A DNA stretch of 64,000 nucleotides from Xestospongia muta. Lineage: Eukaryota; Porifera; Demospongiae; Haplosclerida; Petrosiidae. The DNA lies in the NCBI GenBank assembly GCA_963693285.1, contig OY848931.1, forward strand, positions 4,940,079 to 5,004,078, in the 5' to 3' direction. The notes below the pieces were generated by a model. That model saw nothing but the letters and a program-made list of their open reading frames with translations, searched no databases and was not told where the DNA came from. Positions within the stretch are counted from its first letter, which is position 1. Each line of letters opens with the position of its first letter. A program made the translations under genes and the position numbers. Of this stretch, positions 5,202 through 62,156 are shown one piece after another.

Positions 5202-8200
5202 TTAAGTTTGCATGATAACTTCTTGTTCTGCTTCTTCTTGGACTGCTACCGGTAGAACAGGTCCATTTAGTCTAGCAAGAATCCATGCTGAAATCAATTG
5301 TCGAGCTCTCTCTTGTTCTTTGTCATGAAGAATTTCATGAAAACTTTCAGCAAACAACTAACAAAATCAATCAGAGAAACTATATCATATATTCCTTTAC
5401 CTCATATGTTTTGTCAGTACTAGCAGCATTATTATATATCAACTCTGATGCATGGAGTGGGACCACATGATCAGCAGTACCATGCATCAAAAAAAGAGGT
5501 AAACTGATCTCATGGACTCGTGGTTGATAGAGCTCTATTGATTTCAATAGTGCAGCTCCCGTACCAGCTTTGATAGGAGTATGAATTACGAGAGGATCAT
5601 TGTTATATTCTTCAGCCTATATAGCAAAAGACATAGTAATTCTTTCATTGAATTAAAAGAAATTACAAGCTCATTTCTCCTTACAAGGCTATAGGCTTCA
5701 ATTACAGGATTTAATTAATTCACACACTATGTTCAAACAGCTCGTATAGTCGTTTTTACTACACATGGCTGGTAGAAACTTTCCAAACTGGTTAAAGCTT
5801 ATACATTCAATATGAATTTTATTGAATTGTAGGCTTCAAATCTTCAATATAAAATAAAAATACTTCCAATTATACTATTCAAGGTGAAACATTGATCAGG
5901 AGAAACCAATGGAGCATTTCTATAGCCCAACATAGTCAAGTTAAATATTAAAACAAACAAAGTAAATATCATTGCATAGTACATATAATGGCTATACCTC
6001 TTCTGGTATGCTACTTATTAGATGATAGTCAAAAGGTTTAACACCAACTTTGGGAATAATAGCACTTAACACTTTGGCCAGAAATTTCTAAAGAGAAAAT
6101 AAAAAGTAATGAAATTATAATTATATGCCAAAAGATATATTTATATGATAAAGTCAGTAAATATAAAAAAATTATATTGCATTCTCTTTACAGTGCACTT
6201 GTTGGAAATAAAAATTTGTACATTTTATTAACCATTTACACTCGTGTTTCTTTACTCTACCTTCTGTATTTGTGTTATATATTAGAAAAGTAATGTGTCC
6301 AAATATATAGTAACTGGTCATGCTCACTAAAAAGATTCCTGCTTCCGCAGGATTAATGTCGAGTGCAGGAGAAGAAAGAAGAAGGCCAGTGAATAGATCA
6401 GCTCTTTGAATAGCAACCATTGCAGCAATGAGACCGCCCTATAAGAAGATGAACAAAGAGAAACAATGTAGAGAACTTACCATTGAGTGTCCCATAAGAA
6501 ACATTGGTACTGAAGGATATTTAGCCTTCATATCTTCTATATAGGCAATGACATCAGTTGCATAGGACTGGATATCAAGAATGTATCCACGGTCACCTTC
6601 ACTCCTCCCATGACCAACTAATTATAACATCATCCATGAACACATATGTTAATATGTCTTACCTAGATCTAATCCAAATACTAGTATGTTGTTGTTCTTT
6701 AAATGTTGAGCTACTAGTTCATAACGTCCCATATATTCATGAATACCATGACAAAGATACAATAGAGCTCTGTTATAAGAAAATTACATTTCATTAAATA
6801 AAAGTGGATGTATTAATAATATTCTATACATTACCTTAAGCCTACTTTCAATCGAATGTACTAATTTTTACAAATTTAACTACTGTAATAATCCCTAAAA
6901 TTATACATGATAAATCTGAAAATTTTAAATAGTTGAAATACAGCTATATTTAGTAAACTACCATTACTTTAAGTAATAGTAGTTTTAGGTAAAGGCGTTT
7001 ACCAGACATAAATTTTGTCAATATTGGATTCATAAATGTAACATTCTAACTGAAGTAATACTACAGAAGTGAACTAGTTTTAGTGAAAAATATATTACAT
7101 TGAGTCATTGATACATGTGGTCAAATAGACATGTGAATGTCATGTCATCATGAAGCAGTGATTAAGTCACTTCTAGTAATGAACCTTTGCAAATAGTATG
7201 CATAAATTAAGCTAATAGCATTATTGGTTCAACTATACTCTGTTCATGTTGAAAATGAGCACTAACTCAGTGCTATAACTCTGGCTAGGAATGAGCTTGA
7301 GAGAAATGGTTTACACCATTCAAAACGCCTTGCATGTCAGCAAATTTTATCAAAATCTAGAGTGCTAGCTACCTAGGAAAGTCATAAACCAGAACTCCCT
7401 TTACGACTGATGTCACACATATAATTATTAATAAATGCTTGCACAAGCACTCTCCAGCTTCAGCAGAAAAGTTTAGAAAACATTGAAAATACCTTTAATA
7501 CTAAAAGTAAGATAATTTAAGAAAATTAGCTGCCAAGAACCACAAAAAGTGTCACTATGACTCATCAAAAACTTTGAAACTACAATAGCACACCCAAGTT
7601 ATGTTGATGACATTGTCATAATTTAATTTCCACTAAACCATTCAACACAAACAGAGTATATTATATTAGCTTATGCATTGCAACTTGTATTGCCTCTAAT
7701 TATACTGGTAGTAAAGGCAAGTGACATTATAGAATGACTCACTTGATGTCTCCTGTTGGCTCCCAAGTATAAGTATGTAATACATGATTCTGGAAAGAAC
7801 TTCTCCTCTGCTCAGAGCAGCTCACTTCAAGACTAGGCTGTTCTCTTTGTTGTTCGTCATGCCTAGGGTCTTGTTGATCTTGCTGGCCTTGTTCTTGGTC
7901 TTGATGATCTTGTAGGGCTTGTTCTTGGTCTTGTTGGCCTTGTTTTGGTTCTGTTTCTTGTTGATCTTGCTGGGCTTGTTCTTGTTGATCTTGCTGGGCT
8001 TGTTCTTGTTGATCTTGCTGGGCTTGTTCTTGTTGATCTTGCTGGGATTGTTCTTGTTCTTGTTCATGTTGGCTTTGTTTTGGATCTTGATCCTGCTGGC
8101 TCTGTTCTGGAACTTGTTGATCTTGTGCTGGCTGTTGATCCTTCTCCATTTGTTCAGGATCTTGGTCTTGATTCTGTTGATCTTCTAATTGATCTTTCCC

Positions 8201-8323
8201 TGTGTCTTGTTGATCTTGATTCTTTTGACTCTGTTCTGAATCCTGATCTATTCCTTGATCATGTTGTGGAGTCTCTGCTTCTTTTGGGTCTTCCTTTAGC
8301 TGCTGTGTCCCTTCAGAGCTCAT
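5202..8323 (-). CDS. MGLL: Monoacylglycerol lipase-like alpha/beta hydrolase with Gln-rich N-terminal extension (paralogue A)
   Basis: Seven exons join in phase: 7743-8323, 6663-6769, 6481-6617, 6328-6438, 5998-6087, 5401-5616 and 5202-5357 (466 codons with stop). The hydrolase part has CHGIHEYMGRY after the first strand and FLMGHSMGG as nucleophile elbow (Ser about 274). HGTADHVVP supplies the Asp (about 391) and SFHEILHD the His (about 421), so the triad is complete. In this family the enzyme cleaves monoacylglycerols to fatty acid and glycerol. Residues 1 to about 165 are a low-complexity Q/D/E tract with repeats such as QQDQQEQA. That tract is absent from paralogue B and from typical ~300-residue family members. 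The start codon is 68 bp from the divergent FNTB start. Confidence 0.85.
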
Positions 8324-8391
8324 CTTCCTGTCAAGTATTCAAAGAAGGCGTGGTCGTCTCTTACACAGTTCATTTAGATGCCCCATGTGTG
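8324..8391. promoter_or_regulatory. Very short bidirectional interval between lipase A and FNTB start codons
   Basis: Only 68 bp separate the two divergent ATGs. Both 5' leaders and the core promoters must therefore overlap this stretch or extend into the opposing gene. No TATA box is visible. Confidence 0.5.
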
Positions 8392-38358: not shown

Positions 38359-41039
38359 TCATTTCAGATTCTGACTAGCTATCTGTTTGAGTGAGTCTAC
38401 AGTTGATGGTAGTGGTTGACTTTGTAGCCAGAACTCAGCTTTCATAGCAACCAGTTCCCACTCATCACGATGACTAGTAAACTGTTTCTCCAGAAAAGCT
38501 AACGCTAGTAAAGTAGCCCACATCACTTCTGTACATCCAGCAGGACAAGTACTCTTTAACTCAATGAGGGTACAAGCAATCAATGAGGCTAGACTTTGGT
38601 CTAGAGTCCAGAATCCTTCAGCTGATTGAAGAGTTATCAATTGAGAAAGAGCAGAACTAGGTGTAATAGAATTACGTGCACCATTTTTTTTGGATAGGTC
38701 CCTACAATCGAGACCATCACTTACTACGCTCTCAAATAAATTATCATTTAATAAAGGGGGTGAACCGATTTTACGTAGAACACGACATTGTCCACTAAGT
38801 GGAAGTGAACGTACATTATTTTCTAGAAGTTGTGGTATGCAACTTGGTGGAGGGGGTGGAGCACCACTTGGTGGAGGAGGTGGAGCACCACCTGGTGGAG
38901 GAGGTGGAGCACCAAAATAATTAATTGGAGGATACGATGATAATGATGATTGAAGATCTACAGGCATATGGAGGGTAGCACCCATGGGTTGTAATATGTT
39001 GAACTGGGGTTGATTCTTCATAAGATGATAACCACCATACATACCTATAAAAAAACTCAAAACATGACACTTACTTAGCTACCTAAGTGAACACTAACCA
39101 GTCTCAATAGCTGTTAGATCCCATGTCTTAATAGCTCCCTCTATTGGTTTCTCTTGATCTTCATCTACTGCTACGTAAGCAGTAAGAGATGACACAACAC
39201 TAGACTCTACACTCATTTTAATAATGGCTGCTTTCTTCTCTGCTTTATCCTCCCAATCTTTAATTAAACTCTTAGCTGCTAACTGGTGGACAATTGGTAA
39301 AGCTGACAGAGGACTTTCATCACCACCAACTTCAAAATCCATACAATGTTCTATATCACTACCCAATACTTTGCCCTTAAGTTTAACAGAACAATGTCCA
39401 CTCAAACTACCACCACCTCCCTTTAATATTCCATACATAACCAACTTGTCTCCGTTAAATATTGGAGGGATCTTACTGGGAGCCTGGAGGACTCTAACTC
39501 CAGCTGGTACAGAGAACGTCAGTTCTACATTTGTCACTGAAGGTTGAAGAGCTTTTTTAAGACTACTGATGACCTAAATATAATGTACTTGTTGTTATGT
39601 TGTCATACATATCTTTAATTGATACCTTTGATTGCATTCTTTCTCCTTCTTTGATGAATTCAGCACTTCCATTACCAGCCCTGGCCAGACCCTTAACTAG
39701 AGCACTAGATGCTCCAGACCCTATACCAAATGTGAACACTCTGTGATACAAAGAGCAGACAGTACTGGTTGGATCTCATTGAATAAGAAATATCTAACCT
39801 AGCAACATGAGAGTTCTTCTTGGTCTCATCAATACATGCTTGAGTGTTACCAACAGATCCATCTGTTAGCACAAATACTTGACGTGGTAGTCCTGGTAAC
39901 AACTTCTGACCAAACACAAAATTAAGAGGTTGGAGTAACTCTGTGCCACCAAGATTAGCTTGTATTGTTTGAGCTAGTTTCATAGCTTTGTCTAAGTTAG
40001 TCTGGTTGTAAGGAACACTCTTTGGAAAGAGGTGTTCATAACGTGATCCAAATCCAATAATATTAAAGTAACAACCAGGAGGAATGCTCTTTAGAAAGAG
40101 AACTAAAGTTTCCTTAGCACTGTTAATATACGCTCCTGACATACTGCCACTTTGATCAACTACAAACACAAATTCACATGCTGCTTGTAAACTGGTAAAT
40201 TTTGGAAAGAAATCCAACATGACTGCTGGATTACTCAGTAACTCGTTAGTTCCTTCACGTCCGTTCTCCACTGTAGCATGAGGTGTGTGTGGCTCATTGT
40301 AACTGATCAAGACAACAAGATCTTTATCTAGAGGACCTTGTTCCTTCAATGTAACTTCTATCAACCCTCCCTTGTCTGTGGTATTGATACCATGAGTAGG
40401 TGAGGTGACAGAGGAGATACCCGTGGGATTTGTAATCTTCAAAGAGAAGCTAGACACAGCTGGAGCATGGCCCTTTTCCACTTGAGTCCCTTCACTTGAT
40501 ATGGGAGCAAGAGGATCTACTGAACCTTGTGGAGTATAACGAGGTTTTAAGACAGTAGGGAGAGAGAAACGAACTGCCTCTTCTTCCACTGGTAACTCTC
40601 CTGCTAACTTGAGCAATAGCTGGGCCTCTCCTTTGGGAGGTAAATTACCTAATGCTAAACTAAATATATCTCCTGTCTTCTCTTCTCCAAGAGCTGCAGT
40701 CAGTCCGGAAGCAATGGCATCATCATAAGTAGCACGAGCTTCTTCTTTTTCTTGTACCTATAGACATTGTATCATATGACAGTCACATGACCAACTAATG
40801 GAACATACCACTCCATGAATAGTTCTTCCATCAATTTTAGCCTCCAGTCCTACAACAGTCATACCTTCATCTACTGGGAACCTGAACATGACCTCCAGAG
40901 GATCATCTGAGAGGTTCCGGTAACTCAAGGTGGTATCTAGTCCAACCACATATCCTTTGATATCTCCAGAGACTGCTACACTCTCCAAAGGAACAGTACC
41001 TCCTCTACCCTGGATAACTAAACCATGTTGGGATGACAT
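38359..41039 (-). CDS. VWA5A: VIT + VWA domain protein with proline-rich linker (VWA5A-like, copy 1)
   Basis: Exons 40809-41039, 39799-40757, 39626-39740, 39099-39573 and 38359-39044 join in phase (822 codons with stop). The N-terminal VIT domain holds VPLESVAVSGDIKGYVVGLD and FRFPVDEGM. The VWA domain has the MIDAS motif VVDQSGSMSG and VFVLTDGSVG. The linker region carries repeated APPPPPxG blocks (around 38850-38920) and an extra intron (39045-39098) absent from the divergent partner. The C-terminal domain (STLSQLITLQSAEGFWTLD or similar) is shared. Family members are intracellular proteins of poorly known role. The gene is complete, with a truncated sister directly downstream. Confidence 0.9.
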
Positions 41040-41264
41040 AGCTCACAATAAAATAAGGACTAGTGACTGATCGTTTATATTTAATCAGATCTAGATTACG
41101 TAATGTCTAAAAATAGAATCACAGCTCATTCCAAACTCGGTACGAACCGGGTTGTAGAAGTAAAACACTATAATAAGTTTATTTAATAATAATAAGCTGA
41201 GTCATTGTGTGTTGCTAGAGAATATAAAGTCCAAAACATAGCCTAGCAAATAACAAACATAGCT
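41040..41264. promoter_or_regulatory. Bidirectional promoter interval of the divergent VWA5A-like pair
   Basis: 225 bp separate the two ATGs, with very similar coding DNA leading away on each side. The interval contains AATAATAATAAG and a small ACTCGGTACGAACCGGGT palindrome-like motif. The two halves are not obvious mirror images of each other, so the inversion junction lies at or near the gene starts. Confidence 0.5.
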
Positions 41265-43792
41265 ATGTCATCTCAATATGGTCTAGTTATCCAGGGTAGA
41301 GGAGGTACTGTTCCTTTGGAGAGTGTAGCAGTCTCTGGAGATATCAAAGGATATGTGGTTGGACTAGATACCACCTTGAGTTACCGGAACCTCTCAGATG
41401 ATCCTCTGGAGGTCATGTTCAGGTTCCCAGTAGATGAAGGTATGGCTGTTGTAGGACTGGAGGCTAAAATTAACGGAAGAACTATTCATGGAGTGGTATG
41501 TTCCATTAGTTGGTCATGTGACTGTCATATGATACAATGTCTATAGGTACAAGAAAAAGAAGAAGCTCGTGCTACTTATGATGATGCCATTGCTTCCGGA
41601 CTGACTGCAGCTCTTGGAGAAGAGAAGACAGGAGATATATTTAGTTTAGCATTAGGTAATTTACCTCCCAAAGGAGAGGCCCAGCTATTGCTCAAGTTAG
41701 CAGGAGAGTTACCAGTGGAAGAAGAGGCAGTTCGTTTCTCTCTCCCTACTGTCTTAAAACCTCGTTATACTCCACAAGGTTCAGTAGATCCTCTTGCTCC
41801 CATATCAAGTGAAGGGACTCAAGTGGAAAAGGGCCATGCTCCAGCTGTGTCTAGCTTCTCTTTGAAGATTACAAATCCCACGGGTATCTCCTCTGTCACC
41901 TCACCTACTCATGGTATCAATACCACAGACAAGGGAGGGTTGATAGAAGTTACATTGAAGGAACAAGGTCCTCTAGATAAAGATCTTGTTGTCTTGATCA
42001 GTTACAATGAGCCACACACACCTCATGCTACAGTGGAGAACGGACGTGAAGGAACTAACGAGTTACTGAGTAATCCAGCAGTCATGTTAGATTTCTTTCC
42101 AAAATTTACCAGTTTACAAGCAGCATGTGAATTTGTGTTTGTAGTTGATCGAAGTGGCAGTATGTCAGGAGCGTATATTAACAGTGCTAAGGAAACTTTA
42201 GTTCTCTTTCTAAAGAGTATTCCTCCTGGTTGTTACTTTAATATTATTGGATTTGGATCACGTTATGAACACCTCTTTCCAAAGAGTGTTCCTTACAACC
42301 AGACTAACTTAGACAAAGCTATGAAACTAGCTCAAACAATGCAAGCTAATCTTGGCGGCACAGAGTTACTCCAACCTCTTAATTTTGTGTTTGGTCAGAA
42401 GTTATTACCAGGACTACCACGTCAAGTATTTGTACTAACAGATGGATCTGTTAGTAATACTCAAGCATGTATTGATGAGACCAAGAAGAACTCTCATGTT
42501 GCTAGGTTAGATATTTCTTATTCAATGAGATCCAACCAGTACTGTCTGCTCTTTGTATTACAGAGTGTTCACATTTGGTATAGGGTCTGGAGCATCTAGT
42601 GCTCTAGTTAAGGGTCTGGCCAGGGCTGGTAATGGAAGTGCTGAATTCATCAAAGAAGGAGAAAGAATGCAATCAAAGGTATCAATTAAAGCTATGTACG
42701 ACAACATAACAACAAGTACATTATATTTAGGTCATCAGTAGTCTTAAAAAAGCTCTTCAACCTTCAGTGACAGATGTAGAACTGACATTCTCTGTACCAG
42801 CTGGAGTTAGTGTCCTACAGGCTCCCAGTAAGATCCCTCCAATATTTAACGGAGACAAGTTGGTTATGTATGGGATATTAAAGGGAGGTGGTGGTAGTTT
42901 GAGTGGACATTGTTCTGTTACACTTAAAGGCAAAGTATTGGGTAGTGATATAGAACATTGTATGGAGTTTGAAGTTGGTGGTGATGAAGGCTCTCTGTCA
43001 GCTTTACCAATTGTCCACCAGTTAGCAGCTAAGAGTTTAATTAAAGATTGGGAGGATAAAGCAGAGAAGAAAGCAGCCATTATTAAAATGAGTGTAGAGT
43101 CTAGTGTTGTGTCACCTCTTACTGCTTACGTAGCAGTAGATGAAGATCAAGACAAACCAATAGAGGGAGCTATTAAGACATGGGATCTAACAGCTATTGA
43201 AGCACAAGGAAGGCCAAGTAGGGGATTTAGAGGTGGAGGGTTTGGAGGAGGTGGAGTTCGTATGCTTAAGTGTGCGGCACCTAGAAGTAGAGCTAAACCT
43301 TCTGGAGCTCTTGGTGGTATAATTTTAATGAATAAACTGAAAAAGAAGTCAGCCCCTAAATTTGACCTCATGAGTGAGAGTGCAGCCGCTTGTGAGATAT
43401 CTTCAGTCATGGATGATGAAATGGCTGATGAAGATATGGAGTTTTCACCTACTCATTCTACCTCATTATATTCACCACAGTCTGCTGTTGGTAGCTCCAC
43501 ACTTTCTCAATTGATAACTCTTCAATCAGCTGAAGGATTCTGGACTCTAGACCAAAGTCTAGCCTCATTGATTGGTTGTACCCTCGTTGAGTTAAAGAGT
43601 ACTTGTCCTGCTGGATGTACAGAAGTGATGTGGGCTACTTTACTAGCGTTAGCTTTTCTGGAGAAACAGTTTACTAGTCATCGTGATGAGTGGGAACTGG
43701 TTGCTATGAAAGCTGAGTTCTGGCTACAAAGTCAACCACTACCATCAACTGTAGACTCACTCAAACAGATAGCTAGTCAGAATCTGAAATAA
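41265..43792 (+). CDS. VWA5A: VIT + VWA domain protein with glycine-rich linker (VWA5A-like, copy 2)
   Basis: Exons 41265-41495, 41547-42505, 42564-42678 and 42731-43792 join in phase (789 codons with stop; human VWA5A is ~786). VIT, MIDAS (VVDRSGSMSG) and the C-terminal domain are nearly identical to copy 1. The linker is instead GFRGGGFGGGGVRM, followed by a basic LMNKLKKKS and acidic DDEMADEDMEF segment. This linker arrangement resembles typical VWA5A better than the proline-rich version. Identity is very high in the exons on either side of the linker, which suggests recent duplication or conversion. Confidence 0.92.
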
Positions 43793-51035: not shown

Positions 51036-51098
51036 CCCACAAGAGTTTGAAAACAAAATTGTCAGTAAATATAAAAGAAAACCAAAGCATCCCTGGTT
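51036..51098 (+). promoter_or_regulatory. U6 promoter (PSE + TATA)
   Basis: CCCACAAGAGTTTGAAAACA (51036) and AAATATAAAAG (51067-51077) lie 63 and about 30 bp upstream of the U6 start. They match the same blocks ahead of the structured RNA gene at 28777. Confidence 0.78.
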
Positions 51099-51113
51099 GT
51101 ACCGCAAAGCGGT

Positions 51114-51153
<40 letters not shown>

Positions 51154-51166
51154 GGCCCCTGCGCAA
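51099..51166 (+). pseudogene. RNU6: U6 snRNA gene, 5' part (split by transposon)
   Basis: GTACCGCAAAGCGGTAC forms the 5' stem-loop. ATATACTAAAATTGGAACGA, then ATACAGAGA (ACAGAGA box) and AGATTAGCATGGCCCCTGCG follow the universal U6 sequence up to GCGCAA. The gene then breaks into transposon sequence. Its 3' part resumes at 56593. Confidence 0.96.
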
Positions 51167-51635
51167 AAGCTATCAGCCAATCTTCTCTACAATGGGGGAA
51201 AAAGGGGGGAAGAAGGGGGGAAAAGAGAAAAGGGAGGAGAAAGGAAGGAGGAGGTGGAGGAGGAAGGAAAAAAGGGAGGAGGAGGAAGAAAGTGGTGGGA
51301 AATATGAATTGTTGAAACATGTTTTTCCTTTCTCTCTCCCTTTGGTTCAAACACAGTGTGTTGAAACATGTTTTTCCTTTCTCTCTCCCTTGGGTTCAAA
51401 CACAGTGTGTTACTTATATTATAGAAAAGATAGTGCATTAATTAGAATAACAACTTTGTGGGAACACAAGGATTTAGTCAAAACATGTTTTCCTTTCCCC
51501 TCTCTTCTCCTTTTTGTTCAAACATAGTGCGTTACATATATTATACAGAAAATAGTGCATTTAAGTAAAGATATAAAAGATAGTACATTAAATGTATATA
51601 TAAAATATAAATATTCAAAATATAAATATACTATG

Positions 51636-54600
51636 TTATTTCTTCAAAAGTTGTGTTTTGATTTGAGCCAGCCACTCCTCTTTTGGTATTTGACCAGGTG
51701 CGTGGGGACAGTAGCGGTAGCCACGATATTGTGTGTGGCCAGGGTCAGATGTTGCATTCCCACACACCCGGCAAGAATATTGTTTTCGCTGTTTTGGGAG
51801 TGACTGGCTCTTTCGATGCCTCCACTCGGTTGTTCTTGAGATTTTACTTGAGGAGGCATCAGAAGGTGTAGAGAGCTTGCTAGTGGTGGCATCTGATGGT
51901 GTAGGTGGTAATGGTGATGTCTCGGCAGGAATAAAAGAGGACAATGGAACCACCTTCCTCCGTGTTTGGGCTTGGCCCATGGTATCTGGTGGCTCAGGGA
52001 AGGGGTGTGGATCATTAGTAAGAGGTGGAGGTGTAGTAGGGAGATTTTGTGCAGGAGGGAGAGATGTTGATGAACATAAATTTGGAAATGGTAGTTCCAA
52101 ACCTTGCATCAACATTTTTATTTCATCCCTCCTTACATTATTTTTGTACCACCTAACTAATGTGGTCTTGTTGATGGGGAAGAGCACGAGGCTCGTTCCC
52201 TCCAACAATTCCTGACTGTTGAAGAGCCTCACCCTTATCCCATTGTACTCTGTTAATATTAATCCCCACCGAGACATATATGGTACCTGATGCCTACTGT
52301 CTGCCCTCCTCGGATGAGTAATTTTTTGGCATAAGTAAATGCAGATGGCCTCAACCAGTCTGCTTTTAGCTGGTGATAAAGCTGGTGACCCCGCAGACAG
52401 AAAACACCTGAATTAATTGACAATGAATGATAAAAACCCATTGAATACCTACCTCTTCATGGCTGTAATACCTACATGTCCTGACCGAGATGACTTGGTT
52501 CGAGCAAAGCGCCCCTGTGATCTCTTTGCCCTTGCTTCGTATGACATAGGTTTTTTGTCAAAGTCAAGGAGCTCATCATAGAGACGTTTGATCTCTCTGG
52601 CTTCATCACTACTAACAGAGAGACCACGAAGGTCAAGCAATGCTCTCGCCAATCTGTCAACTCGATCCCATCCTCCAATTCCCCGAATATCAATAGACTC
52701 TCCACCCTGAGTTAATTCATCCTATAAATAAATAAGACTAAACATTTTTGGAGATATTGGAACATACTTCTTCCTCTTCACCACTATCACTGTCATCATC
52801 TGAGGCCTCTGGAATTGCAATTGTTGGCTCATCTACATCTACAAGTGGTGGTGGCGTACTTGCGTCATCAATATCCCCAAACCCCTCATCGATTTCTGTG
52901 TCAAGGTCCTTCTTAAGAAGGGAGAGACAACTTTGATGGTAAAGGTACTCAACTCCAAAGAGCTCTCCAGTATATTTATGTGGAGGTCGGTAAAGGGGGA
53001 AGATGGTGCTCCCATGCAGAGATTGAGAGAGGACATTCACGCGGTGTTTCAGAGATGTGTCAAATGTCCTTAGAGATATAGAAGATGACTGAAGAGCTTG
53101 TGAAGCACGCTCAGCATTCCAACGAGTGATACCATCAAGCAGATATGCTTGAAAGTTCACTGCATTGGCACACGATCCAGGGATGAATCGTGACAGATGT
53201 AAATGAAAACTCTCCAAAGAGGTTGACCCCCTGGCGCAGCGAAAAACAGGAAGTCTGACACCCCCCTTCATTGAATAGCTCATGATGGTATAGAGCTGAA
53301 TGTTGGGAGGATCTTGAAGACAACGGACATGGTGCTTTTGCTCCGCCCAGATGTCTTTCATGTCTTCCCTTAACACAGGCACTCCAAGAGGGTCTGTGGC
53401 AGTTGACAAACCCAGCAAAAGTTTTTCAATGAGATCTGTTGTCCACTCAGTTCCTCGAGTTCTTCTCCGACAGTGTCTGGCTAACTCATCCTTTGTTATG
53501 GCATTCTTTGCAGCATTGTCAGATGGATTAGCAATGCCTGCTTTGACTAGCTCACTCTTTTTGGCACTAATTAAGAGGTCAAAGTCATCTGCATCCCACT
53601 CGAAGATGCAGTTTGACAATTTCCCCATAAATGTACCATACAGAGGATGTGACTCACTAGTGCAACCACAAGCTAATCTCCGCATAAAGTGCCATATATC
53701 GAGACAAACATGTAAGCCAGACCACCTGGAGAAAAGAACATTGAACTTTGAGGGACCATTTTGAGAACAACAGTCTCGATCGGTGTAAAGGATTTGAGGA
53801 GATTCTTGCTGAGCATTATCAAACCTGTCCATCAAACCATTGGCGAGCCTCTGCAAATCCAGTATTCCTTCCGACTGAGTCAGGACAGAGATAAGAATCT
53901 CTCCCTTCTCATTACCTACATTAGTGGCCCATGCAGCTGTGTCTGCATCAGCTCCCTGTAATTTCTTACAGACCTTCTTAGTTGAATCAATCTTCAAGAT
54001 TGACCCATATACAGAAGTAGCTTCAGCAAGAAGAGTAGGAAGCCTACTCCACACGTCTCTCACGTACACAGCTAGGAACCACTTAGGTGTCGGAAGAGGT
54101 TTGAAGGGTGGTGTCTGGTCGTAACAGGGGACGAGCTGGTGGAACTGCTCAAGTCCTCGTTTATGATGTTGACAGTCAGTGAGGTAGTGTAGTTGTCTTC
54201 TAAGCCATTCCTCACTATGTACCTCCTCGAGCTGATTTCGCAGCGCAGTAGAACTGTTCCCAAGTGTTCTGGAACGTAAAAGAGTAACCACAGACTGGTC
54301 ACAGGCATACTTCCGGGTTAAAACAACTGGAAAGCGTGCTCTGACACCATCAGAAAGCTGCTCTAACATCCTGTTGTCCCATGACACAAATGTACCATTA
54401 CAGGCATTACAATCCATGTATTCTCCCGCCAGATAATAAAAGTCCCTGATGTCAAGGACCAGGCGAACATGGTTGTAAACACCTTTTGATCTTAGATGTT
54501 GTCGGCTCTTACAATGTGGACAGTGGAATAGAACTTGCCACATTCTAAGTGGCATCCACAGAAAGAGCCGTTTGTGGTAGTAATTTTCAACCACTGGTTT

Positions 54601-56021
54601 TGATTTTGGCAGCATTTCTGATGGGGGGTGCCACCAAAGGCTTAAATTGTTTGTCAATTTGCCCTTAGAGACAAACAGAGCACGACCAATCCAATTCCTG
54701 TCCCCTTCAGCAATATTCTGCAACCAGCCCTTAGGAAGACGTAGAGTGTAGTCTATTGACTGTCGTGGTGGGGATTGGAACGAAGTTGAAGATGAAGATG
54801 GTACTGACGATAATACGGATATCTAATTTACAATAATAATAATATTAACAAAAAATTATCAATTAAGAAATACCTGGGGTTGAGTACCAGGCTCAGAGTG
54901 ACACGGAGAGAGATTTGAGAGAGATGGGGAAATTGAGAGAGGAGCTGGTGGTGATGGTGGTAGAATTGATGATGACAGAGGAGAGGATAATGACAGAGGA
55001 GATGATGGTGATGAAGGAGGAACTGGGGAAGCGGAGAGAGTACTGGTGAAAACTGATGAGGTGATGAAAACTGATGAGGTGGATGGTGGACAACTGGTTG
55101 TGACCGATGAGGTGAAACGAGGAGCTGATGATAGAGATGTGGTTGAGGCCAGAGGAGGGAGAAGTATTGAAGATGTGGATGGTGACATGGGAGGACACTA
55201 TGGTCAAAAAAGAAATCAACAACAACTCAACTAGTTTTAACTAGTTTCTACAAGGCCTATATGGTAGTTGCATATACCTCAGTTGAGCAAGTCCTCTTTG
55301 AAATAGGAGAGAGATTTGAGATCGTCGGTTTGTATACTTTCTAAAGTGAATGGATGTCTTAAACTCAGACTCACATATGAAATTACTACCTTTGGAACAC
55401 CTCCAAGAGTAAAGCCTGCTTTTCTCTTTGTTGATAAAGAGCATACATTAGATTGAAACTTGTTACTAATAATTATCTTACTTTGGAAGCGGTGAGAAGA
55501 GATGATTGAGCTGATGGTACCTATATGCAAGGTAAATTATCTCTTTGGAAACATATTACTAATGATTATCTTACTTTAGAGGTAGTGGGAAGAGATGATG
55601 GAGATGGCTGAGATGATGGTACCTATATGCAAGGTAAATTATCTCTTTGGAAACATATCACTAATGATTATCTTACTTTAGAGGTAGTGGGAAGAGATGA
55701 TGGAGATGGCTGAGATGATGATTGAGACTGAGATGATAACTGAGATGGTTCCTACATACAGTATTACATTAACTGTGATACTCTATTTTCTTGTTTATAT
55801 CAACCTACCGAGTGATATCCACACGTACAATGAACCTTCCCACCAAATGGATCGAGACCTCGTCTGTTTTTATGTCTTGAGCATTGCTCGATTTTTAGTA
55901 TTTCTCTTGCCCAATGAGAGTCGCTTGGAGGTTTCATTCCTCGCCTAAATTGGAATTCTCCATTAGCGAACGCAAATAACCTCTTGCGCCATTCTGATGA
56001 TGGTAAAGCTGTCTTCGGCAT
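51636..56021 (-). CDS. Transposase, 1,287 residues (DUF6729-like + DDE/RNase-H-like core)
   Basis: Exons 55809-56021, 55677-55751, 55575-55622, 55482-55520, 55390-55458, 54874-55197, 52768-54822, 52453-52721 and 51636-52407 join in frame with no stop. In order: an N-terminal Cys/His segment (KVHCTCGYH); Ser/Pro-rich linkers; and a DUF6729-like domain (RLFLWMPLRMW, HCPHCKS, MDCNACNGTF, LRSRTLGNSS). The core has KIDSTKKVCKK, YTDRDCC and GSTSLESFHLH as likely Asp-Asp-Glu, plus LDIWHFMRR. Then come an acidic DDDSDSGEEEE tract and a C-terminal CRVCGN...YCPHAPG cysteine cluster. Related proteins are numerous in fish genomes. All frames and splice sites are open, so recent activity is plausible. The small linker exons are less certain than the large ones. 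Confidence 0.85.
55512..55728. repeat. Tandem duplication of a small transposase linker exon with its intron
   Basis: A ~108-bp unit occurs twice. It contains ACCTATATGCAAGGTAAATT, ATCTCTTTGGAAACATAT and the exon reading VPSSQPSPSSLPTTSK-like residues. A diverged third relative lies at 55440-55520. Each copy keeps acceptor and donor, so the Ser/Pro linker grows in modules. Confidence 0.8.
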
Positions 56022-56389
56022 TTGAAATAGCTAGAATAACACCTTAGCAAAATATTTCAAATATTTTGAACTTACAGAAATTAATAGCAGCAGAACAACT
56101 TCAATAACACTTTGCAACAAAAAAACCCAGCTAGACCTTAGCTAATTAATAGCAGCAGAACAGCTCCAGTAACACTTTGCAAACAAAAAACAGCTAGAAG
56201 AATAACACCTTAGCAAAATATTTCAAATATTTTGAACTTACAGAAATTAATAGCAGCAGAACAGCTCCAGTAACACTTTGCAAACAAAAAACAGCTAGAA
56301 GAATAACACCTTAGCAAAATATTTCAAATATTTTGAACTTACAGAAATTAATAGCAGCAGAACAGCTTCAATAACACTGCAGCTGAAAA

Positions 56390-56575
56390 ATGACCACGTG
56401 TTTTGTTTCAAATGTTTCAATTTTTGCTCACGTGATCTTCCGCAGCTCACGTGATCCTGTTCCAAATGTTTCAATTTTTGCTCACGTGATCTTCCGCAGC
56501 TCACGTGATCCTGTTCCAAATGTTTCAATTTGTTTCAATTGTTTCAAATGTTTCAAATGTTTCAATTTATGGCGA
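56390..56575. repeat. Subterminal CACGTG/GTTTCAAATG repeats at the transposon right end
   Basis: Two ~57-bp units (TTTTTGCTCACGTGATCTTC plus CGCAGCTCACGTGATCCTG) are followed by TGTTTCAAA repeats. They are related to 47865-48165. Confidence 0.85.
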
Positions 56576-56592
56576 AGCACGGGCGATAATAG

Positions 56593-56636
56593 GCGCAAGG
56601 ATGACACGCAAATTCGTGAAGCGTTCCAAATTTTTT
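56593..56636 (+). pseudogene. RNU6: U6 snRNA gene, 3' part
   Basis: GCGCAAGGATGACACGCAAA, then TTCGTGAAGCGTTCCAAA and a T6 terminator follow the universal U6 3' half. The first six bases duplicate the end of the 5' part. Joined without the insert, the two parts make a normal-length U6 of about 106 nt. Confidence 0.96.
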
Positions 56637-58165: not shown

Positions 58166-59007
58166 CTTAAGAAATAACATATATTGACATTTTTAATCAC
58201 AGCTTCGTCACTAGCAAAAGCAGACTGGTTGAGGCCATCTGCATATGTCTCTGCAAAAAGATATCACAACCAGGGAGGGCAAACAGTAAACATCAGGTGC
58301 CATGTAAGTCTCAGTAGGTATTAATATTAGCGAAGATTATTGATATCAATGTCTCTTTGTGCTATAGAATACAATCAGATATACTAACTGTGATAAGAGA
58401 TTTTATTTGTTTTTTAGGCTTCGACAATAATAATATTTACTCAGGTAATTTGTAGTAATTTTGATACTTGGGTCAACCTGAGGTTTAAGTCAGTCTGGAG
58501 TTAGCTGTAGTAAAAAAGGAAGACATTTCATCCTTGATAAAACTGCTAGTGTAACACAATGCACTACTAGATATGAAAAACAAAAGTGAGTATTGAAATT
58601 GAGGAAGACCATCTTAAGAAAGACAAATTCAGTCTAGATTTAGTTGCAGTGAAAAAGGAAGACATTTCATCCTTGATAAAACTGCTAGTGTAACACAAAG
58701 CACTACTAGATATGAAAAACAAAAGTGAGTATTGAAATTGAGGAAGGCCATCTTAAGAAAGACAAATTCAGTCTAGATTTAGTTGCAGGAAAAAGGAAGA
58801 CATTTCACCCTTGATAAAACTGCTAGTGTAACACAATGCACTACTAGATATGAAAAAAAGCTGTTCTGCTGCTATTAATTAGGTAAGGTGTTATTCTTCT
58901 AGCTGTTTTTGTTGCAAAGTGTTATTGAAGTTGTTCTGCTGCTATTAATTTTTGTAAGTTCAAAATATTTGAAATATTTTGCTAAGGTGTTATTCTAGCT
59001 GTTTCAA

Positions 59008-59478
59008 ATGCCGAAGACAGCTTTACCATCATCTGAACGGTGCAAGAGGTTATTTGTGCTCGCCAATGGAGAATTCCAATTTAGGCCAGGAATGAAACCT
59101 CCAAGTGACTCTCATTGGGCAAGAGAAATACTGAAAATCGAGCAATGCTCAAGACATAAAAACAGACAAGGTCTCGATCCATTTGGTGGGAAGGTTCATT
59201 GTACGTGTGGATATCACTTTTATTATTTGGCAGGAGAATACATGGATTGTAATGCCTGTAATGATACATTTGTGTCATGGGACAACAGGATGTTAGAGCA
59301 GCTTTCTGATGGTGTCAGAGCACGCTTTCCAGTTGTTTTAACCCGGAAGTATGCCTGTGACCAGTCTGTGGTTACTCTTCTACGTTCCAGAACACTTGGG
59401 AACAGTTCTACTGTGCTACGAAATCAGCTCGAGGAGGTACATAGTGAGGTAGAAAGCTGTTCTGCTGCTATTAATTAG
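59008..59478 (+). pseudogene. Amplified transposase N-terminal exon, unit 1
   Basis: 156 open codons: MPKTALPSSERCKRLF through KVHCTCGYH fused to FYYLAGEYMDC and ending EEVHSEVESCSAAIN. Stop follows in the next leader repeat, so only the N-terminal domain could be made. Confidence 0.85.
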
Positions 59479-59603
59479 GTAAGGTGTTATTCTTCTAGCT
59501 GTTTTTGTTGCAAAGTGTTATTGAAGTTGTTCTGCTGCTATTAATTTTTGTAAGTTCAAAATATTTGAAATATTTTGCTAAGGTGTTATTCTAGCTGTTT
59601 CAA

Positions 59604-60080
59604 ATGCCGAAGACAGCTTTACCATCATCTGAACGGTGCAAGAGGTTATTTGTGCTCGCCAATGGAGAATTCCAATTTAGGCCAGGAATGAAACCTCCAA
59701 GCGACTCTCATTGGGCAAGAGAAATACTGAAAATCGAGCAATGCTCAAGACATAAAAACAGACAAGGTCTCGATCCATTTGGTGGGAAGGTTCATTGTAC
59801 GTGTGGATATCACTTTTATTATTTGGCGGGAGAATACATGGATTGTAATGCCTGTAATGGTACATTTGTGTCGTGGGACAACAGGATGTTAGAGCAGCTT
59901 TCTGATGGTGTCAGAGCACGCTTTTCAGTTGTTTTAACCCGGAAGTATGCCTGTGACCAGTCTGTGGTTACTCTTCTACGTTCCAGAACACTTGGGAACA
60001 GTTCTACTGCGCTACGAAATCAGCTCGAGGAGGTACATAGTGAGGTAGTTGCAGTAAAAAGAAGACATTTCACACCTTGA
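59604..60080 (+). pseudogene. Amplified transposase N-terminal exon, unit 2
   Basis: 158 open codons with the same fused CGYH-FYYLAG junction. The frame leaves the transposase at EEVHSEV and ends VAVKRRHFTP inside a minisatellite unit. Confidence 0.85.
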
Positions 60081-60545
60081 TAAAACTACTAGTGTAACAC
60101 AATGCACTACTAGATATGAAAAACAAAGTGAGTATTGAAATTGAGGACAGACATCTTAAGAAAGACAAATTCAGTCTAGATTTACTTGCAATAAAAAGAA
60201 GACATTTCACCCTTGATAAAACTGCTAGTGTAACACAATGCACTACTAGATATGAAAAACAAAGTGAGTATTGAAATTGAGGACGAACATCTTAAGGAAG
60301 ACAAATTCAGTCTAGATTTAGTTGCAGGAAAAAGGAAGACATTTCACCCTTGATAAAACTGCTAGTGTAACACAATGCACTACTAGATATGAAAAAAGCT
60401 GTTCTGCTGCTATTAATTAGGTAAGGTGTTATTCTTCTAGCTGTTTTTGTTGCAAAGTGTTATTGAAGTTGTTCTGCTGCTATTAATTTTTGTAAGTTCA
60501 AAATATTTGAAATATTTTGCTAAGGTGTTATTCTAGCTGTTTCAA

Positions 60546-61022
60546 ATGCCGAAGACAGCTTTACCATCATCTGAACGGTGCAAGAGGTTATTTGTGCTCG
60601 CCAATGGAGAATTCCAATTTAGGCCAGGAATGAAACCTCCAAGCGACTCTCATTGGGCAAGAGAAATACTGAAAATCGAGCAATGCTCAAGACATAAAAA
60701 CAGACAAGGTCTCGATCCATTTGGTGGGAAGGTTCATTGTACGTGTGGATATCACTTTTATTATTTGGCGGGAGAATACATGGATTGTAATGCCTGTAAT
60801 GGTACATTTGTGTCGTGGGACAACAGGATGTTAGAGCAGCTTTCTGATGGTGCCAGAGCACACTTTCCAGTTGTTTTAACCCGGAAGTATGCCTGTGACC
60901 AGTCTGTGGTTACTCTTCTACGTTCCAGAACACTTGGGAACAGTTCTACTGCGCTACGAAATCAGCTCGAGGAGGTACATAGTGAGGTAGTTGCAGTAAA
61001 AAGAAGACATTTCACACCTTGA
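60546..61022 (+). pseudogene. Amplified transposase N-terminal exon, unit 3
   Basis: Same as unit 2 with a few substitutions (DGARAHFP for DGVRARFS). Flanks are nearly identical, indicating recent amplification or conversion. Confidence 0.85.
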
Positions 61023-61628
61023 TAAAACTACTAGTGTAACACAATGGACTACTAGATATGAAAAACAAAGTGAGTATTGAAATTGAGGACAGACATCTTA
61101 AGGAAGACAAATTCAGTCTAGATTTACTTGCAATAAAAAGAAGACATTTCACACCTTGATAAAACTACTAGTGTAACACAATGCACTACTAGATATGAAA
61201 AACAAAAGTGAGTATTGAAATTGAGGAAGGCCATCTTAAGAAAGACAAATTCAGTCTAGATTTAGTTGCAGTGAAAAAGGAAGACATTTCACCCTTGATA
61301 AAACTGCTAGTGTAACACAAAGCACTACTAGATATGAAAAACAAAAGTGAGTATTGAAATTGAGGAAGGCCATCTTAAGAAAGACAAATTCAGTCTAGAT
61401 TTAGTTGCAGTAAAAAGGAAGACATTTCACCCTTGATAAAACTGCTAGTGTAACACAATGCACTACTAGATATGAAAAAAGCTGTTCTGCTGCTATTAAT
61501 TAGGTAAGGTGTTATTCTTCTAGCTGTTTTTGTTGCAAAGTGTTATTGAAGTTGTTCTGCTGCTATTAATTTTTGTAAGTTCAAAATATTTGAAATATTT
61601 TGCTAAGGTGTTATTCTAGCTGTTTCAA

Positions 61629-62156
61629 ATGCCGAAGACAGCTTTACCATCATCTGAACGGTGCAAGAGGTTATTTGTGCTCGCCAATGGAGAATTCCAA
61701 TTTAGGCCAGGAATGAAACCTCCAAGTGACTCTCATTGGGCAAGAGAAATACTGAAAATCGAGCAATGCTCAAGACATAAAAACAGACGAGGTCTCGATT
61801 CATTTGGTGGGAAGGTTCATTGTACGTGTGGATATCACTTTTATTATTTGGCAGGAGAATACATGGATTGTAATGATTGTAATGATACATTTGTGTCGTG
61901 GGACAACAGGATGTTAGAGCAGCTTTCTGATGGTGTCAGAGCACGCTTTTCAGTTGTTTTAACCCGGAAGTATGCCTGTGACCAGTCTGTGGTTACTCTT
62001 CTACGTTCCAGAACACTTGGGAACAGTTCTACTGCGCTACGAAATCAGCTCGAGGAGGTACATAGTGAGGTAGTTGAAATCGAGGACAGACATCTTAAGG
62101 AAGACAAATTCAGTCTAGATTTACTTGCAATAAAAAGAAGACATTTCACACCTTGA
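61629..62156 (+). pseudogene. Amplified transposase N-terminal exon, unit 4
   Basis: 175 open codons. After EEVHSEV the frame runs through VEIEDRHLKEDKFSLDLLAI, which is minisatellite-encoded. One metal-ligand position changed (NACN to NDCN), as expected without selection. Confidence 0.85.

Follow-up and report, generated by a model that had tools for sequence, protein, structure and literature searches.

A Dada-U6-type DNA transposon splitting a U6 small nuclear RNA gene of the demosponge Xestospongia muta

Transposons of the Dada superfamily insert into specific small RNA genes and generate target duplications of 6–7 bp (Kojima & Jurka 2013, PMC3706591). For Dada-U6, the families directed to the U6 small nuclear RNA (snRNA) gene, that paper gives the hexamer GCGCAA, nucleotides 65–70 of U6, as the site used in zebrafish, Daphnia and Capitella, and describes the repeats TCTTCTCTG and CAGAGAAGA at both element ends, equidistant from the duplication, as common to all Dada-U6 families rather than as their definition. 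The host phyla of reported Dada-U6 elements are Chordata, Arthropoda, Mollusca and Annelida, according to a 2022 paper (PMC8869645), whereas the host described here belongs to Porifera. Within a 64,000-nucleotide stretch of the genome of the demosponge Xestospongia muta (contig OY848931.1, positions 4,940,079 to 5,004,078; hereafter the window), we found an element that is very probably an autonomous Dada-U6 DNA transposon. It occupies one fixed U6 site with a 6-bp duplication, carries, antisense to U6, an open gene predicted to encode a DDE transposase, and is present as two near-identical copies in two U6 genes.

The U6 gene of the window lies in two parts. A match to the Rfam U6 model (67.6 bits against a gathering score of 44) ends exactly at GCGCAA, and a second GCGCAA is followed by the remaining U6 sequence and the T6 terminator. 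As the adjoining base differs on either side, the duplication is exactly 6 bp long. Joining of the flanks with a single GCGCAA gave a U6 of 106 nt, of which 104 match an uninterrupted U6 gene on contig C7, and the two mismatches (positions 5 and 13) are both located in the 5′ stem. The insert is therefore bounded to the base. An earlier note on this DNA had described an insert of about 5.4 kb splitting U6 with GCGCAA on both sides, a 6-bp duplication, and two parts that together make a full U6 with the ACAGAGA box and the T6 terminator; each of these statements was borne out. The features of the locus are as follows.

51054–51075, forward strand: external promoter of U6, in which an upstream element continues into a TATA-like box (pattern CAAAATYSTCAGTAAAYATAAA)
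51099–51166, forward strand: 5′ portion of the split U6 snRNA gene (Rfam RF00026, model positions 1–68)
51138–51146, forward strand: CAGAGAAGA of U6 (ACAGAGA box), 14 nt ahead of the duplicated hexamer
51161–51166, forward strand: target site duplication GCGCAA, left copy; U6 nucleotides 63–68 here
51167–56592, reverse strand (that of the transposase): Dada-U6 transposon, 5,426 bp; contig C2 holds a second copy, differing by one mismatch
51181–51189, forward strand: left subterminal repeat, TCTTCTCTA, matching the published TCTTCTCTG at 8/9 positions and separated from the duplication by 14 nt
56570–56578, forward strand: right subterminal repeat position, TGGCGAAGC, 14 nt from the duplication, 5/9 to CAGAGAAGA
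56593–56598, forward strand: target site duplication GCGCAA, right copy
56599–56636, forward strand: 3′ U6 part with T6 terminator, 38/38 nt identical to the uninterrupted U6 on C7

The nucleotides 63–68 counted here presumably correspond to 65–70 of the published numbering, through a 2-nt offset in the 5′ stem.

By searching the whole assembly (158 Mb, 28 contigs), a second insert with U6 arms was found on contig C2, in the same orientation and with the same junctions as the window copy. The assembly's COX1, on contig C28 and translated with genetic code 4, is identical at 518 of 518 residues to a UniRef protein labelled Demospongiae, the next matches reaching 93% or less; its identifier, I6LIL5_XESMU, indicates Xestospongia muta (Haplosclerida, Petrosiidae). 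The two loci are identical at 5,574 of 5,575 positions across 51062–56636, the single difference being at 51719. Since a near-identical insert occupies the equal base of a second U6 gene, the insertion in U6 is confirmed to be real and not due to chance. Genome searches with the left 534 bp and the right end, using a tool that scores the best candidates and skips very common words, detected complete ends in these two copies only; both copies with complete termini (2/2) are thus located in U6, at the equal base and with the equal 6-bp duplication, as the earlier note had led us to expect. Among 40 genome matches to the transposase, the same two copies are full length without stops. The remaining 38 are fragments, 28 with stops and 10 open but short, including four tandem units within the window.

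The origin of the second copy was then considered. Recent segmental duplication of one U6 locus together with its element would agree with the presence of a duplicated relative of the C2 locus elsewhere in the genome. This relative, however, lacks the element, and the left flank of the window copy, used as a genome query, matched its own place only. Furthermore, the flanks of the window and C2 copies are unrelated beyond the U6 gene, ungapped blocks of 50 bp giving 8–21 matches on the left and 13–23 on the right, with the value of 23 coming from a block that begins inside U6. A segmental duplication is contradicted by these unrelated flanks, and we regard this origin of the second copy as extremely improbable. 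The relative of C2 (locus L009) shows 88.5% and 89.8% identity to the C2-copy flanks over 572 and 837 bp, and its U6 body, although masked, has the length of an uninterrupted gene; this locus represents an empty paralogous site in the same genome. The element would not fit into it, and insertion at C2 therefore most likely followed the duplication that relates the two loci.

Gene conversion deserves more weight, though we still hold it to be unlikely. Under this explanation a single real insertion took place, and ectopic recombination via the U6 arms common to both loci then placed a second copy in the other U6 gene. The two loci become identical in the U6 promoter region (51062) and cease to be so just beyond the terminator (56637), close to the limits of U6 homology, and three of the four U6 loci recognised in the genome are identical across 46 bp of the promoter and U6 start (51066–51111). 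However, tracts of more than 5.4 kb with arms of only about 100 and 40 bp are unusual in general, and an independent jump predicts the equal picture without this difficulty in tract length. If conversion did occur, the near-identity of the copies would be a signal of conversion and not of a recent jump, and the assignment of the element to Dada-U6 would be unaffected. Whether it was a jump or a transfer of one copy to the second U6 gene, the latest event was presumably recent. As both copies are open and nearly identical, the element may still be active in the sponge lineage.

The predicted transposase gene is located on the reverse strand, antisense to U6, and is open over 1,264 codons. The large open reverse-strand gene of the earlier note was thus retained, but its nine exons were reduced to the following eight, the uncertainty of the model lying in the small linker exons.

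55809–56021, reverse strand: exon 1, start ATG and N-terminal C/H-rich motif; GT donor, start and N terminus align with the hagfish homologue
55677–55751, reverse strand: exon 2, predicted, Ser/Pro linker; GT-AG, phase 0
55575–55622, reverse strand: exon 3, predicted, linker, within a tandem duplication; GT-AG, phase 0
55482–55520, reverse strand: exon 4, predicted, linker; GT-AG, phase 0
54874–55197, reverse strand: exon 5, predicted, Ser/Pro-rich; GT-AG, phase 0
52768–54822, reverse strand: exon 6, DUF6729 with CCCC finger, followed by the catalytic DDE domain and its DxxH motif; from Pfam, motifs and model
52453–52721, reverse strand: exon 7; GT-AG, within the stretch aligned to homologues
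51636–52407, reverse strand: exon 8, C-terminal part carrying the CCHC finger and the stop codon; AG acceptor, CCHC motif

The protein contains the DUF6729 domain (Pfam PF20499, E 3.5e-84), the DDE residues D512, D581 and E770, and the DxxH motif as DIWH at 608, after the second Asp; the spacing between the two Asp residues is 69 as compared with 68 published. An N-terminal CCCC zinc finger (C334, C337, C371, C374) and a C-terminal CCHC zinc finger (CRVC-GNATSDPG-H-TQYRGYRY-C, 1220–1241) were also identified. These features of the Dada superfamily, together with the 6-bp duplication and the small RNA gene as target at the published U6 site, agree with the insertion of a Dada element into U6 proposed in the earlier note, and support the classification of the insert as a U6-targeting Dada transposon that looks intact.

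A domesticated host gene, lying by chance in a dead U6 copy, might also show a long open frame and only two intact copies, and a domesticated Dada-U6 gene is indeed known in carp-like fishes, in which the two Asp residues are often mutated and DxxH is altered to DxxQ (PMC8869645). In the sponge element, however, the catalytic residues and DxxH are retained, and the ends, the duplication and the second copy at the equal site are all features of a transposon. We consider domestication very unlikely, and a transposon remains our reading of the insert.

The structure model of the protein part encoded by exon 6 (predicted local distance difference test score, pLDDT, 86.1) was found with a second structure aligner to be closest in its catalytic fold to the transposase of ISCth4, which we take to be a member of the IS256 family. 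The P element and Hermes (hAT) transposases also share this fold, and the identity to the three proteins is 7–11% within the aligned parts. None of the three is known to target one fixed position within a small RNA gene. As judged from the second aligner and the motifs, the modelled catalytic fold is of the IS256/P/hAT type, in line with the relation of Dada to IS256, P and hAT proposed previously (PMC3706591). A sequence-profile search of PDB gave a single match, a phosphatase at E 0.42, which was regarded as chance.

The element ends were then compared with the target. The complementary CAGAGAAGA of U6, a 9-mer described for Dada-U6 (PMC3706591), stands 14 bases from the duplication, on its far side. 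On the two strands of the element together, 4 of 10,836 positions match the published repeat TCTTCTCTG at 8/9 or better. An in-register comparison of the left end with reverse-complemented U6 gave agreement at 15 of 26 positions; of 10,800 element windows, 5 do at least as well, counting the left end itself and one other at 16. Inside GCCAATCTTCTCTA, a stretch chosen after inspection, the agreement was 12/14. The right end agreed with U6 at 8 of 26 positions, which is the chance level. The two element ends agreed with each other at 14 of 26 positions, as did 22 of 10,800 element windows or better, both ends included. Since other windows score equally or higher, the likeness of the left end to U6 counts for its location; target mimicry is plausible at this end, chiefly through its position and weakly by score alone, and is unproven at the right end.

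In a mechanism consistent with these observations, the transposase, perhaps via its zinc fingers, would bind the CAGAGAAGA region of U6. The left element end provides what looks like a near-copy of this region at the equal distance of 14 nt from the joining point, and a single protein surface could therefore read both the element end and the target. The transposase would then cut the target with a 6-bp stagger, and the element would be joined there. The host would survive with its remaining U6 genes, because these stay empty.

Relatives of the transposase were found in many animals, bony fishes included, among the matches listed. Uncharacterised DUF6729 proteins of Halichondria, Dysidea, Actinostola, Myxine and Branchiostoma are 47–59% identical to the window transposase, and those examined carry the same motifs. 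Unlike the window transposase, the listed Halichondria protein has the second catalytic Asp replaced by Asn. For construction of a tree, 50 sequences were chosen, consisting of the window protein, 28 named and 21 unlabelled proteins among 120 matches listed; Merluccius was dropped as its aligned piece was short, leaving 49 rows. The window protein groups with P0001 (99% identical) and then with P0006 (support 99/90), both unlabelled, inside a set of 16 rows (support 94/92) that includes Halichondria and 14 unlabelled rows. A branch with support 97/94 separates the side of the window protein, including hagfish and lancelets, from 12 bony-fish rows, and the sponge Dysidea is on the fish side. 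Three changes are required to place the four sponge rows (mean of 3.9 after shuffling; as low in 40 of 500 shuffles), and the transposase history is therefore not simply that of the hosts. If fish Dada-U6 proteins belong to the fish part, U6 specificity spans the tree. Among viral contigs, 49 stretches matched a pattern, and none of them is a relative.

Several points weigh against the assignment to an autonomous Dada-U6 transposon. The right repeat agrees with the published 9-mer at only 5/9, a level expected by calculation for about 1 in 20 random 9-mers, and four other windows among 10,800 equal or beat the 15/26 of the left end. The tree includes no labelled Dada-U6 protein. The catalytic Glu was assigned by conservation, and its spacing from Asp is 189 as compared with 176 in the published zebrafish protein. 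The Foldseek search with the model gave no match below E 0.001. The difference at 51719 changes a Tyr codon in the window copy to His in the C2 copy, within the loop of the C-terminal finger, where homologues carry Gln, Lys or other residues; given this variability among homologues, equal activity of both copies is not required.

Among the described systems, Dada-U6_DR and further Dada-U6 families (Kojima & Jurka 2013, PMC3706591) share the GCGCAA site of U6 with the sponge element. The latter differs in its length of 5,426 bp, against 8,963 bp for the zebrafish Dada-U6 element, in its degenerate right subterminal repeat, and in an orientation opposite to that of the Capitella elements. No report of a sponge Dada element was found in a literature search of titles and abstracts, most subscription papers and Repbase being outside its scope; one of the papers listed contains both Dada and Porifera and is, by title and abstract, a study of a Tc1/mariner family. 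The sponge is an added host of the known target-specific Dada-U6 kind, and the element itself is near-intact.

Four U6 loci are recognisable in the 158-Mb genome, two filled and two empty. The promoter pattern CAAAATYSTCAGTAAAYATAAA, written from the four loci, gave 223 matches (reversed control, 48), of which the four without mismatch are at these loci only, 6 have one mismatch and 213 have two or three. All of the 6 were read and none is U6, and many among 90 listed of the 213 represent one repeat type. The pattern of the U6 start gave 13 matches (reversed control, 3), four mismatch-free at the same loci and nine with two mismatches, none of these nine containing U6 when read. Both patterns favour the four loci because they were written from them, and Rfam scored only 47 of 16,106 first-look candidates. 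Copies with altered promoter and stem, masked copies and collapsed arrays could escape, and four is therefore the count of recognisable loci.

In an abundant repeat (L068, L069, L071 and many matches of the promoter pattern), a U6-like promoter, CAAAATCGTAAGTACATATAAA or one of its variants, precedes a common stretch GGCCAGCGT...TGACCTCTGAGATGGTTACCAGC. No Rfam match was obtained for the three members read, L068, L069 and L071, and the repeat is possibly a gene family transcribed by RNA polymerase III or a short interspersed element. At L066 and L067, a U6-type promoter is followed by other short structured-looking sequences, and L066 weakly matches a small RNA family of nematodes, its 29.6 bits falling short of the gathering score of 38.

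Kojima & Jurka (PMC3706591) proposed copy number as a main constraint on Dada target choice and counted 654 intact U6 genes in zebrafish, against the four recognisable loci of the sponge. A tentative and rather doubtful extension is that Dada targeting of the U6 hexamer is as old as animals and can do without a large target family, with about four U6 loci, half of them occupied. If true, a target of about four loci contradicts high copy number as the primary requirement. The sponge host makes an animal-wide, very old U6 specificity testable, as vertical descent against repeated transfer, and since the target looks scarce, the element offers a natural test of how few target genes suffice. The scarce target and the host phylum are what set it apart from a routine family member. 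With its compact 5.4-kb length, two near-identical open copies and target likeness at one end, it is convenient for studying hexamer recognition.

Older degenerate Dada pieces, about 70–97% identical by piece, crowd round the intact element on its contig (43988–48133, 57352–58329, 36240–37232, 27590–27894 and 32640–32944), and the transposase relics found elsewhere are on contig C1 only. There, at 22.97–23.16 Mb (L039–L044 and others), Dada fragments of about 60% protein identity are repeated every 13–50 kb. Several join residues near 293 to near 565, a similar internal deletion, and all six large fragments contain stops.

Four tandem units at 58857–62070 on the forward strand consist of satellite repeats of about 138 bp and a fused Dada transposase piece, in which exon 1 is joined to part of DUF6729; the same fusion is present in a relic at 46.6 kb. 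All four units contain 147 open codons from the two fused pieces. The numbers of codons with nonsynonymous and with synonymous changes in unit pairs were 3:3, 4:3, 5:1, 3:0, 4:2 and 7:2, nonsynonymous being equal or higher in 6/6, and those against the nearby relic, which contains a stop, were 13–17 and 3–6. The units were considered as a domesticated repressor and rejected, as the codon changes show no sign of purifying selection; recent duplication is therefore the simpler reading.

Two other features of the window were noted. A large inverted repeat of a VWA-domain gene spans 38359–43792, its arms being nearly identical in protein, and an open reading frame of 199 amino acids, very rich in Gln, Asp and Glu repeats, is present at 7739–8338 on the reverse strand. 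For a VWA-domain neighbour, the 120 matches listed of 650 include no named protein. The arms of the inverted repeat, from open reading frames, are as follows.

38359–40757, reverse strand: VWA-domain inverted repeat, first arm
41547–43792, forward strand: VWA-domain inverted repeat, second arm
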